A stretch of 21,795 nt of DNA, taken from the IMG/VR virus record IMGVR_UViG_3300045922_000426, positions 1-21,795 of that record, one strand, 5' to 3'. The notes under the pieces were generated by a model. That model was not told where the DNA came from and did not search any database. It saw nothing but the letters and a program-made list of their open reading frames with translations. The DNA comes from a virus. Position numbers and translations under genes: made by a program. Positions 5,767 to 21,794 of the stretch are shown here, in pieces. Position 1 is the first letter of the stretch; every line of letters starts with the position of its first letter.

Positions 5767-6115
5767 TATCCATCTCCCGCTGTTGCCGCTGCCGCTGCTG
5801 CCGTTGTTGCTGTTGCTGTTGCTGTTTCCGGCGCGAATTCAGATTTACCACCTGTGCGGAATTTCGTCTTTGGCTACTCTTGGAGCATTTGCCTTCGATG
5901 ATGGCGTCACGCAAAGAGCGCAGTCTCAGAGAGAGTTTGTGCGCGGGATTTGTAGAGAATGTCAGTCGTCGCAGAACCTTGAGAGCTTGCTCAACAGAAA
6001 CTGTCTTGCCTCGCCCGTTCCATCCACGAGAGAGCTTCCAGTAGGTAAGCGTCCGCTGTGCTAGAGGCGTGGGCTTTGTATTGGCCATCGCCGGAATTCT
6101 GAACGATGTTGTCAT
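5750..6115 (-). CDS. Basic protein of unknown function with C-terminal polyglutamine tract
   Basis: This 121-residue protein is first after promoter P1. It is strongly basic, with helical segments (VSVEQALKVLRRLTF, KLSLRLRSLRDAIIEG), and ends in a Gln/Arg tract (seven Gln, then QQR repeats) encoded by CAG/CAA codons. No family was recognised; the charge and helices could suit nucleic-acid binding, but this is a guess. The ATG at 6115 has AGGAGA ten bases upstream and fits the promoter; an internal Met at residue 10 (6088) is an alternative. The 3' end overlaps the nrdJ start by 17 bases, so the polyQ DNA forms the nrdJ leader and may affect coupling. Confidence 0.65.
   Translation of the reverse strand: MTTSFRIPAMANTKPTPLAQRTLTYWKLSRGWNGRGKTVSVEQALKVLRRLTFSTNPAHKLSLRLRSLRDAIIEGKCSKSSQRRNSAQVVNLNSRRKQQQQQQQRQQRQRQQREMDNVCKR
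5779..5826. repeat. Imperfect CTG/TTG trinucleotide tract
   Basis: A run of imperfect CTG, TTG and CCG triplets (CAG/CAA on the coding strand) encodes the Gln/Arg-rich end of the preceding basic protein and lies just upstream of the nrdJ start at 5766. Length variation by slippage is plausible. Confidence 0.8.
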
Positions 6116-9732: not shown

Positions 9733-10386
<654 letters not shown>

Positions 10387-12874: not shown

Positions 12875-13096
12875 TTAGCTTCCTTCATCAGGGGGTGTTG
12901 GGTTGGGTGTTGAGCCGGGTATTGAGTTTGATAGATACCCCTCCCGCTTGTACCTTTCATACTCGTCCATCGAGATCCGATACCGCCCGCCAACCTTTAT
13001 AGCCTGCAGACGATTGTCTCTGATTTTCTTCCGGACGGTTTCTGGATGTTGCCCAGTCAAAGCACAGAATTGCGGGAGGGATATCCAGTTGCGCAT
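12875..13096 (-). CDS. Excisionase/MerR-type helix-turn-helix DNA-binding protein
   Basis: This 73-residue protein has the winged HTH seen in excisionase-family and MerR N-terminal domains: SLPQFCALTGQHPETVRKKIRDNRL (about 6-30) forms the helix-turn-helix, followed by QAIKVGGRYRISMDEYERY as the wing and a final helix. The C-terminus is Pro/Gly-rich (SIPGSTPNPTPPDEGS). In a phage replication block it is more likely a transcription regulator or recruitment factor than an excisionase, because no integrase is visible. The start codon directly abuts a hairpin (13097-13137) whose loop holds the best ribosome-binding sequence, suggesting regulated translation or autorepression. Confidence 0.8.
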   Translation of the reverse strand: MRNWISLPQFCALTGQHPETVRKKIRDNRLQAIKVGGRYRISMDEYERYKREGYLSNSIPGSTPNPTPPDEGS

Positions 13097-13137
13097 GCTA
13101 GTCAGCAGATCTCCCTAGCCACTGATCACTGACTAGC
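13097..13137 (-). promoter_or_regulatory. Nine-pair hairpin abutting the start codon of the HTH gene
   Basis: On the - strand GCTAGTCAG (13137-13129) pairs perfectly with CTGACTAGC (13105-13097), with a 23-base loop; the ATG of the HTH gene follows at once. The loop contains GGGAG, the only good Shine-Dalgarno, and the TAG of the upstream DUF669 gene lies in the 5' arm. Translation of the upstream gene would open the stem. It could be an RNA coupling switch or a DNA operator. Confidence 0.6.
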
Positions 13138-13585
13138 CCATGAAGGCGTCGCTGCTGCTGGCAGCTTTCAGGGCTCGCACCCGATTGCGGTTCTCGCCCT
13201 GATACTTCTCGATCGCGACTTCTGCACGAACGGACCTGCCTTCCAAGTCGCTCGCCACAACCTCGGGATTGAACGGTCCCGACAGCAGCTCGGGCGCGAT
13301 CGATGCCAGAGCTCGCTTGGTCAGCGGCAGAGCTTTCGGACTGAACGACAGGTGAGTGAAGAGCTTGCGCCCTTCGTACTCGCCTTCGGTGATGTTCAAC
13401 TTCAGCGTCCACATCGGCTGGCCCGAATTCTGTGACATCCCATACTCGCACGACTCGATCGTGCAAGAATAGGTACCTTTCGGCAGAAGTTCGAAGCCGA
13501 CATCTTCGATGTCGGATAGATCGATCATGATCGAGCCATCACCGCCCTCGAAGGTGCTGTCGTTTTCGAAGTCCGATCCACTCAT
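13133..13585 (-). CDS. DUF669-like protein, possible single-stranded DNA-binding/recombination partner
   Basis: This 150-residue protein has an acidic opening (MSGSDFENDSTFEGGDG) and then the DUF669 pattern: LLPKGTYSCTIESCEYGMSQ, MWTLKLNITEGEYEGRKLFTHLSFS, and a C-terminal stretch DLEGRSVRAEVAIEKYQGENRNRVRAL that resembles an OB-type strand layout. DUF669 proteins commonly sit beside Sak4-type ATPases and are thought to bind single-stranded DNA; direct evidence for this one is lacking. The ATG at 13585 has GGAGAG six bases upstream. A longer frame to 13705 reads through the GGTTGGTG repeats and the Sak4-like gene end, so it was rejected. Confidence 0.75.
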   Translation of the reverse strand: MSGSDFENDSTFEGGDGSIMIDLSDIEDVGFELLPKGTYSCTIESCEYGMSQNSGQPMWTLKLNITEGEYEGRKLFTHLSFSPKALPLTKRALASIAPELLSGPFNPEVVASDLEGRSVRAEVAIEKYQGENRNRVRALKAASSSDAFMG

Positions 13586-13600
13586 AGTACTCTCCATTTT

Positions 13601-13632
13601 GGTTGGTGGGTTGGTGGGTTGGTGGGTTGGTG
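13601..13632. repeat. Perfect (GGTTGGTG)4 repeat, G-quadruplex-prone
   Basis: Four perfect eight-base copies lie in the short gap between the Sak4-like and DUF669 genes, within the 5' leader of the latter. The + strand is a run of GG and GGG tracts, able in principle to fold into G-quadruplexes; this is the template strand for the - strand genes. It matches no terminator or known phage signal. Confidence 0.85.
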
Positions 13633-13661
13633 CCAGATTATTGCTTAGGAACTGGCTCCTC

Positions 13662-13682
13662 AAGGCGGTGTTAAGCCGCCTT
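13662..13682 (-). terminator. Hairpin overlapping the stop of the Sak4-like gene
   Basis: AAGGCGG (13662-13668) and CCGCCTT (13676-13682) form a seven-pair stem with a seven-base loop holding the TAA. No U-tract follows. It may be an RNA stabiliser or a weak attenuator; the distal genes need read-through from P2, so full termination is unlikely. Confidence 0.35.
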
Positions 13683-14615
13683 GTCTTTCTTCTGCAACAG
13701 GCCAAAGCCTTGCAGAATGCTGGTCATCGTAGGATTGTCGAAGAACGGCTCCCGATAGCTGGAGCGACGATTCTTTGCATCCCACTTACCGACGGGCTGG
13801 ACATACAGCCGCCGGGGAGCATCTCCCTTATCGTTCGTAGCTCCCACAGCCAAGTAGCCGACCACGTCGAAATAGCCCTGGATCTGCGTCGCCAACTTAC
13901 CCGTCAGATGCGGTGCATAGTAGAACCGCTTCAGCTCGTCCTGGTAGTAGGTCTGCCCACAGAGGATGATTACATGCATCGGCAAATCGCGGAAAGCTCG
14001 GACGAGCAGATTGACCATGTTGTTGTTCTTCTTATACTCGGCAAACTCCGCCGTCTTCATGTCGTCATCGATCTGGCCGAGATCGAACTCACCATGGATG
14101 CCGAGAAGATTGTACATGCAGTACGCTTCTAGCTCGGTGAGCGAATCCACGATCACGGTGCGATACCGCTTGGGCTCGATGATCTCTTCTACAGGCACCC
14201 CGCGGAGAGCTGCTTCATACTGCTTGATCTTTTGCAGTGCTTGAGCACCATCCTCACCGCCAGCATCTACCCTCTTCCACAGGGCTACATGCGACGAGAG
14301 AAACTCGTACATTTTGGCAGCCTGTTTGAAGTTGGATACATCCGCGATGTCGATCCTTTCCGGATGCTTGATGCGTTCATTGTCCGAGAACACCATCTCA
14401 CCGGATTCGACGTTGATCATGAAGATATCATTCATCTGATCGACATCGGCAGCCGAACCCGCTAGAGTCGTCTTGCCTGAGCCATGCTTTCCGTAGATCA
14501 GGATCTTCAGCCAGCGGTTGCTGGTTTGGATCGTCGAGAGCTGGAACGGCGGCGCCGATTTCGTGCGCACGCCAACATTCGCACCCGTCGCGGTAGACGT
14601 CGTCATCTGGTTCAT
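13671..14615 (-). CDS. Sak4-like RecA-family ATPase (recombination/annealing partner)
   Basis: This 314-residue protein has a Walker A motif, GKHGSGKTT, at 42-50, and a Walker B, YRTVIVDSLTEL, about 100 residues later. The rest fits a RecA-core ATPase of the Sak4 type used by phages for single-strand annealing and repair. A later VIILCGQTYYQDE segment matches a core strand and sensor region. The start is uncertain: the frame extends to a GTG at 14681 and has an ATG at 14651, but the ATG at 14615 has GAGGGAG nine bases upstream and avoids overlap with the preceding gene. It lies just upstream of the DUF669 gene, a pairing seen in many phages. Confidence 0.85.
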   Translation of the reverse strand: MNQMTTSTATGANVGVRTKSAPPFQLSTIQTSNRWLKILIYGKHGSGKTTLAGSAADVDQMNDIFMINVESGEMVFSDNERIKHPERIDIADVSNFKQAAKMYEFLSSHVALWKRVDAGGEDGAQALQKIKQYEAALRGVPVEEIIEPKRYRTVIVDSLTELEAYCMYNLLGIHGEFDLGQIDDDMKTAEFAEYKKNNNMVNLLVRAFRDLPMHVIILCGQTYYQDELKRFYYAPHLTGKLATQIQGYFDVVGYLAVGATNDKGDAPRRLYVQPVGKWDAKNRRSSYREPFFDNPTMTSILQGFGLLQKKDKAA

Positions 14616-14661
14616 ATCAGTCGACTCCCTCTCGGCTGTTTGTATGTGCATGTATTGGTCT

Positions 14662-14916
14662 TTACCACCAAGGCTGTTCACTTGCTGGCAGGCGTTTCAA
14701 CATGTAGATACAACCCTCTTTGTGGCTGACATGTGCATTGATGTACATCTTGAAATCATGGCCCATTGCCTTGATGATGTCGGGGGCCACCATCTTCTGC
14801 GGAACGTTGATCTCGATTTTACGGTCTTCTGAATAGAGAAGCCAGTGGGCATCAGGATCGTTTGTATTGATCGGCCGCTGAACTTTCAGCACGATAGGCG
14901 TCGAATTCCTCGTCAT
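14662..14916 (-). CDS. Small protein of unknown function
   Basis: This 84-residue protein opens with MTRNSTPIVLKVQRPI, has HWLLYSEDRKIEINV and then MVAPDIIKAMGHDFKMYINAHV, and ends in a Trp pair. It looks alpha/beta, with no Cys pair or membrane segment. No family was recognised. Its ATG overlaps the stop of the Cas4-like nuclease gene (TGATG), so it is translated with it, and it lies upstream of the Sak4-like ATPase. Position suggests a recombination-module accessory factor. Confidence 0.65.
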   Translation of the reverse strand: MTRNSTPIVLKVQRPINTNDPDAHWLLYSEDRKIEINVPQKMVAPDIIKAMGHDFKMYINAHVSHKEGCIYMLKRLPASEQPWW

Positions 14917-21657: not shown

Positions 21658-21794
21658 TCTTGATCCCGTTGAAAAATCTTTTGATCCGGGTCCGCCTCAC
21701 AAAGCTCGTCGTTGTCGTCGTTGTCGTCGTTGTCGTCAGGGCCGTTTATGCTGTTTGGACCAGGCCTGCCAAACCATTTGCGCTTGTTTGCAGC
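21630..21794 (-). CDS. C-terminal end of an unknown acidic protein (5' end outside window)
   Basis: An open frame enters from the right edge and runs to TGA at 21632-21630, giving 54 visible residues. It begins basic (NKRKWFGRPG), then has Asp-Asp-Asn repeats (DDNDDNDDNDDE) encoded by a nine-base tandem repeat, and ends acidic (FDSCDLEE). An acidic tail after a basic region is common in SSB-like and DNA-mimic proteins, but too little is visible to assign a function. Confidence 0.55.
   Translation of the reverse strand, partial: AANKRKWFGRPGPNSINGPDDNDDNDDNDELCEADPDQKIFQRDQDFDSCDLEE
21705..21740. repeat. Nine-base tandem repeat (GTCGTCGTT)
   Basis: One near-copy and two perfect copies of GTCGTCGTT, then a partial one, encode the Asp-Asp-Asn repeats of the edge gene. 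Confidence 0.85.

Follow-up and report, generated by a model that had tools for sequence, protein, structure and literature searches.

A tandem octamer array in the window (the whole stretch analysed, a 21,795-base virus record from IMG/VR) lies in the mRNA leader of a phage single-stranded-DNA-binding protein (SSB) of the DUF669 family, directly behind a Sak4-like gene. We give even odds to the array serving as the single-stranded portion of an autogenous SSB operator of the T4 gp32 type. That DUF669-Sak4 phages carry gp32-like operators, consisting of a pseudoknot or hairpin nucleator and a G-free tract that is selected for unfoldability and freely rebuilt, seems to us slightly less probable than that.

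Results

The octamer array and its genomic context

Positions 13601–13632 hold four exact copies of GGTTGGTG on the plus strand. Direct reading and TRF (period 8, 4.0 copies, 100% matches, score 64) confirm what had been reported from the sequence alone, that four exact G-rich octamers occur here. A two-unit probe allowing up to two mismatches gave three matches, all within the array, in contrast to a mean of 0.01 in shuffled sequences (n = 100). Over periods 4 to 12, the longest perfect match run in the window was 25, whereas none of 200 order-1 Markov randomisations exceeded 12. The array is thus real and far above chance expectation.

Other repeats are also present. The TRF score of the octamer array, the highest in the window, is equalled by that of a (TCGTCGTTG)n array at 21706–21737. 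The N-terminus of a FolE-like protein has a His-Glu repeat encoded by (TGCTCG)n at 10340–10370, a stretch that is 18 nt shorter in the closest relative, L004. An imperfect repeat at 5777–5826 encodes the Gln/Arg-rich C-terminus of a 121-aa ORF; the large ORF next to it resembles a ribonucleotide reductase gene.

Both the Sak4-like and the DUF669 gene are encoded on the minus strand. The G-rich strand thus serves as template, and in mRNA the array appears as (CACCAACC)4. The array sits between the Sak4 stop (13671) and the DUF669 Shine-Dalgarno sequence (SD, 13595–13592) and ATG (13585), and its 3' end in mRNA sense is 5 nt from the SD. The features of the junction are as follows.

13133–13585, minus strand: DUF669 gene, phage single-stranded-DNA-binding protein (PF05037, E 4.7e-12; PHROG SSB families)
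13592–13595, minus strand: Shine-Dalgarno GGAG, 6 nt upstream of the ATG (read directly; kept in L004)
13601–13632, minus strand: (CACCAACC)4 tract of the mRNA leader ((GGTTGGTG)4 on the plus strand); CCAAC-type tract in L004 and AACT array in L008 at the equivalent place
13633–13660, minus strand: weak pseudoknot candidate AGGA-G-CCAG-U-UCCU-(10)-CUGG, or plain CCAG/CUGG stem (crude scan score 21)
13661–13683, minus strand: 8-bp hairpin across the Sak4 stop codon, CAAGGCGG-(7)-CCGCCTTG, −12.6 kcal/mol
13671–14681, minus strand: Sak4-like single-strand annealing protein gene (PHROG 124, E 1.7e-42; AAA_24, E 4.5e-21)

The two neighbours had been named correctly in the sequence-only reading, as the matches to PHROG 124 and PF05037 (46.6 bits, curated cut-off 21) show. 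The AF2 model of the DUF669 protein (pLDDT 84.9) has as its best Foldseek match in the PDB the SSB PrgE (E 1.8e-6), with bacterial SSBs next (2.5e-3 and weaker); as modelled, the product is an SSB with an OB-type fold like that of characterised SSBs. The DUF669 protein of phage HK620 has been shown experimentally to be an SSB that stimulates the adjacent Sak4 (Hutinet et al., 2018, PMC5928155). No SD is visible before the earlier in-frame DUF669 starts (TTG at 13705 from the ORF finder, ATG at 13597). For the Sak4-like gene, the ORF finder places the start at 14681, while an ATG at 14612 matches the relatives in the alignment; the protein is 96, 43, 52, 69, and 44% identical to those of relatives. 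An 84-aa ORF at 14662–14916, lacking a Pfam or PHROG match, lies inside a 299-nt stretch that is absent from L004.

The hairpin across the Sak4 stop is retained in L004 through one double change from G-C to A-T (−10.5 kcal/mol). It was rejected as a terminator, since the T-rich tail is found on the plus strand only and the coding strand has no T run after the hairpin. The candidate at 13633–13660 directly abuts the repeat, in a region almost identical in L004, and was not recovered by the strict stem rules described below. A promoter scan of the coding strand of the junction was empty, and Rfam gave nothing meaningful, a single match to a miRNA close to the junction staying below threshold. 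The idea of a specially conserved 38-nt upstream block was dropped, as 17.7% of 38-mers are equally conserved between the window and L004.

Turnover of the repeat unit among relatives

The window and L004, with 88.6–91.8% DNA identity in aligned blocks, are the sole two members of their clade that were found. The two share the flanks of the array site, between which L004 carries a CCAAC-type tract of ~57 nt. Apart from the extra-gene stretch in the window, this tract is the largest length difference in the 11-kb alignment of the two; the leader is 27 nt longer in L004, in agreement with the earlier suggestion of a spacer that changes leader length. The predicted unpaired fraction is moderate over the window repeat (0.56) vs. 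0.84 over the L004 tract.

More distant junctions differ further. In the 12.9 kb of L008, TRF detects a single tandem repeat, the AACT-type array at this junction. The array of L018 is of the GTTTGTTC type, and in L045 a (CCCAAA)n tract at the equivalent place is translated as the PKPKPK tail of Sak4. Many relatives have no array at the Sak4-DUF669 junction; none is visible in L007, L005, or Brevundimonas phage StAshley. Since array units differ or are absent among relatives, the unit itself is not what is kept. The octamer array also precedes an SD in two other viral contigs (L012, 6415–6438; L013, 2066–2097), and the genes behind it there do not look like SSB genes.

Unstructured, G-poor DUF669 leaders

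Leaders were compared across 49 distinct Sak4-DUF669 junctions (set 1), with gene starts and control leaders taken from our own gene caller; the leaders share ancestry, and the statistics treat leaders that are not fully independent. For the repeat and pseudoknot tests, eight leaders with a gap of <24 nt were dropped, leaving 41. A replication set comprised 31 further distinct leaders, of which 23 were usable after eight were dropped; candidates with leaders at least 90% alike had been merged beforehand.

Over positions −45 to −1, the mean unpaired fraction was 0.552 for DUF669 leaders (n = 38) vs. 0.454 for leaders on the same contigs (n = 239; p 1.1e-6), and with strict same-contig controls 0.548 (n = 37) vs. 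0.456 (n = 110; p 1.5e-5), the DUF669 leader being the more unpaired in 29 of 37 paired comparisons. Nested folding revealed no extra structure at −100 to −51 of DUF669 leaders. Among 11 gene families with enough leaders, DUF669 had the highest mean (0.544; others 0.408–0.490), although the difference from ligase alone (six leaders) was not significant. In the replication set the values were 0.514 vs. 0.454 (p 0.014). High expression was considered as a cause of unstructured leaders and rejected, because the capsid-gene leaders of the same phages are ordinary: major-capsid leaders, located in StAshley and in 10 of the 24 records searched, averaged 0.439 vs. 0.603 for DUF669, which was higher in 9 of 11 phages (p 0.012).

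G-free runs of at least 25 nt occur in 8/37 DUF669 leaders vs. 6/110 controls (p 0.0075). In the replication set the mean longest G-free run was again greater (17.1 vs. 13.4, p 0.0015), but runs of at least 25 nt were found in just 3/23 vs. 9/104. Such runs also occur in some QueC (3/27) and Sak4 (3/23) leaders. The queC leader of the window (12875–12926) contains a G-free C/A-rich tract, CAACACCCAACCCAACACCCCC in sense orientation, that overlaps the end of the HTH gene, and L004 carries a variant of it.

The motif AACCA is present in 15/40 set-1 DUF669 leaders vs. 18/250 controls, L004 being left out to avoid counting the sister of the window twice; one of 500 label permutations matched the best p found across all motifs of 4 to 6 nt. 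It was enriched again in the replication set (9/23 vs. 11/104, p 0.002). Tandem repetition behaved differently: its set-1 enrichment (8/41 vs. 15/250 at p ≤ 0.01) failed in the replication set (4/23 vs. 10/104), and we reject it as a hallmark of the family. Slippage in a low-complexity tract is its probable source.

Pseudoknots in DUF669 leaders

In a crude scan the means of DUF669 and control leaders did not differ significantly (p 0.11), yet single cases were striking, and an earlier, looser scan found pseudoknots at p ≤ 0.05 in 16/41 leaders vs. 8/150 randomly chosen controls. Strict rules, fixed after the crude first look, compare the score of the weaker stem with that in dinucleotide shuffles of the same leader, without a full energy model. 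With these, 8/41 DUF669 leaders vs. 0/239 controls have a pseudoknot at p ≤ 0.01 (Fisher 1.1e-7), and 13/41 vs. 10/239 at p ≤ 0.05 (9e-7). The replication set gave 3/23 vs. 1/104 (p 0.019) and 5/23 vs. 6/104 (p 0.028, weaker than in set 1), respectively. The majority of leaders remain at p > 0.05 (28/41 in the first set, 18/23 in replication). An H-type pseudoknot is present in a subset of DUF669 leaders, and the evidence at the family level is good.

The strict scan also retrieves the known pseudoknot of T4 gene 32 (p 0.025), whose 3' end lies at −39. Those of the DUF669 leaders end mostly 30–50 nt before the ATG; of the eight at p ≤ 0.01, seven end at −30 to −39 and that of StAshley at −66. 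The fold common to L042, L040, L036, and L253 covaries within this subgroup, forming 59 of 60 possible pairs with double changes at 10 of 15 pairs. A DNA pattern scan returned at least 120 matches; among the matches listed, the best pseudoknots were those of four loci from three phages already known. A pattern scan of genome contigs for pseudoknot leaders gave one locus. Rfam searches of 14 loci, including L004, found nothing at gathering score; the L042 leader had no match at E ≤ 10, and the StAshley leader two unrelated sub-threshold matches. In several DUF669 leaders (L044, L048, L051, L261, and L265), a conserved block around CTAGGCCTTAACGGCGCTAG lies directly 5' of the SD and is perhaps another regulatory fold.

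Discussion

Comparison with known systems

T4 gp32 has been reported to act as an autogenous repressor, which first binds a pseudoknot in the gene 32 mRNA and then the unstructured tract with UUAAA/UAAA repeats that covers the ribosome-binding site, RBS (PMC535899, PMC3014915). Like those of T4 and RB69 gene 32, the DUF669 leaders belong to an SSB gene and have a fold on the 5' side and an unstructured stretch (>40 nt in T4) in which short tandem repeats and the RBS lie, and the H-type pseudoknots of several relatives end at a similar distance from the start. Of the 72 T4 leaders examined, that of gene 32 scores highest for repeats; among T4-like gene 32 leaders, 6/11 show a repeat excess at p < 0.05 and 5/11 none, and there too the repeat units change. 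GCACCAACT stands at the start of the unstructured tract in both the L004 and T4 gene 32 leaders, probably by chance. Unlike the A/U-rich tracts of T4 and RB69, those of DUF669 are C/A-rich, and the window has no convincing pseudoknot. The likeness is drawn from the leaders, not from protein homology of DUF669 and gp32.

Other systems share single elements. HK620 has the same module, sak4 followed by a DUF669 ssb (PMC5928155), but there the ssb overlaps sak4, so that HK620 has no such leader. The STAXI motif, as reported, also places pseudoknots near ssb and other DNA genes (PMC2864571); these are repeated, whereas the DUF669 pseudoknot is single, and the scanned loci gave no gathering-score Rfam match. 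M13 gp5 is likewise described as a phage SSB acting as a translational repressor (PMC535899). Unlike the self-repression proposed here, it represses the mRNA of another gene (gene 2). The gene 2 leader is G-rich.

A proposed operator and alternative explanations

As the DUF669 leaders share the layout of T4 gene 32, we propose the same mechanism. SSB in excess of available single-stranded DNA would load on its own mRNA leader, nucleating at an RNA fold just upstream of the tract: a pseudoknot in several relatives and, in the window, the 8-bp hairpin at 13661–13683 and/or the weak candidate at 13633–13660, an assignment that is the weakest step of the proposal. It would then spread along the G-free unstructured tract across the SD and block ribosomes; once single-stranded DNA is exposed, SSB would depart and translation resume. 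A tract read mainly as unfolded RNA would be free to turn over in sequence and length by slippage, which may yield CACCAACC, CCAAC, or AACT arrays in different phages. Selection would act on unfoldability and not on letters, and the tract could be rebuilt from varied tandem units, (CACCAACC)4 among them. SSB binding, repression, and a like working of the window leader are what we infer by analogy. The weak pseudoknot and moderate unpaired fraction of the window, the majority of leaders with no significant pseudoknot, the nested folding that revealed nothing extra at −100 to −51, the overlap of ssb and sak4 in HK620, the failed replication of tandem repetition, and the octamers before non-SSB-like genes in L012 and L013 all count against the operator.

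Those two contigs speak for a translation-enhancing or standby leader, in which an unstructured A/C-rich tract 5' of the SD would do no more than help ribosomes load faster on the mRNA of an abundant protein, feedback playing no part. CA-rich/ACA elements in this position have been described as raising translation in Salmonella (yifK, dppA, gltI; PMC3879156), and the G-free runs in QueC and Sak4 leaders are also in keeping with this. We nevertheless think it rather unlikely: these phages do not have unstructured major-capsid leaders (0.44 vs. 0.60 for DUF669), the ACA triplet is, by inspection, absent from the window repeat and the L004 tract, and the pseudoknots in DUF669 leaders would be left unexplained. 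Neutral slippage, with the array a functionless G-poor spacer that expands and contracts during replication, is less probable still. The change of unit and length between ~90%-identical phages, the failure of tandem repetition to replicate, and the further short arrays within the window would all be expected of it, but low structure, low G content, AACCA, and pseudoknots are enriched here over controls, and this was replicated.

Explanations at the level of DNA fare worse. The G-quadruplexes suggested in the sequence-only reading, or another template-strand signal in replication, recombination, or RNA polymerase pausing, appear very improbable. The G4Hunter score is 1.64 for the window leader and 1.80 for that of L004, and the 32-mer at 13601 has the top plus-strand score in the window. 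However, the mRNA is unable to form a G-quadruplex because the G-rich strand is the template; on that strand just 3/38 DUF669 leaders reach G4Hunter ≥1.2, the G-run pattern is not conserved, neither strand of the AACT and GTTTGTTC arrays in relatives has G runs, and the window has no four-run G3 pattern. An array of sequence-specific sites for a DNA-binding protein (the HTH product, Sak4, or DUF669) scarcely deserves credence: the octamers are regular and exact and an HTH gene lies downstream, but ~90%-identical L004 has a different unit, and no octamer array, at the equivalent site between two conserved flanks. What stands of the earlier suggestion of a protein-binding site is a candidate DUF669 site on the mRNA, our best hypothesis; as a site in G-rich DNA it does not hold.

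Literature searches, which covered few subscription papers, turned up no report of such operators in DUF669 leaders. As a second, widespread family of phage SSBs with unstructured leader tracts and with leader pseudoknots that covary in one subgroup, DUF669 offers many natural variants for direct testing.
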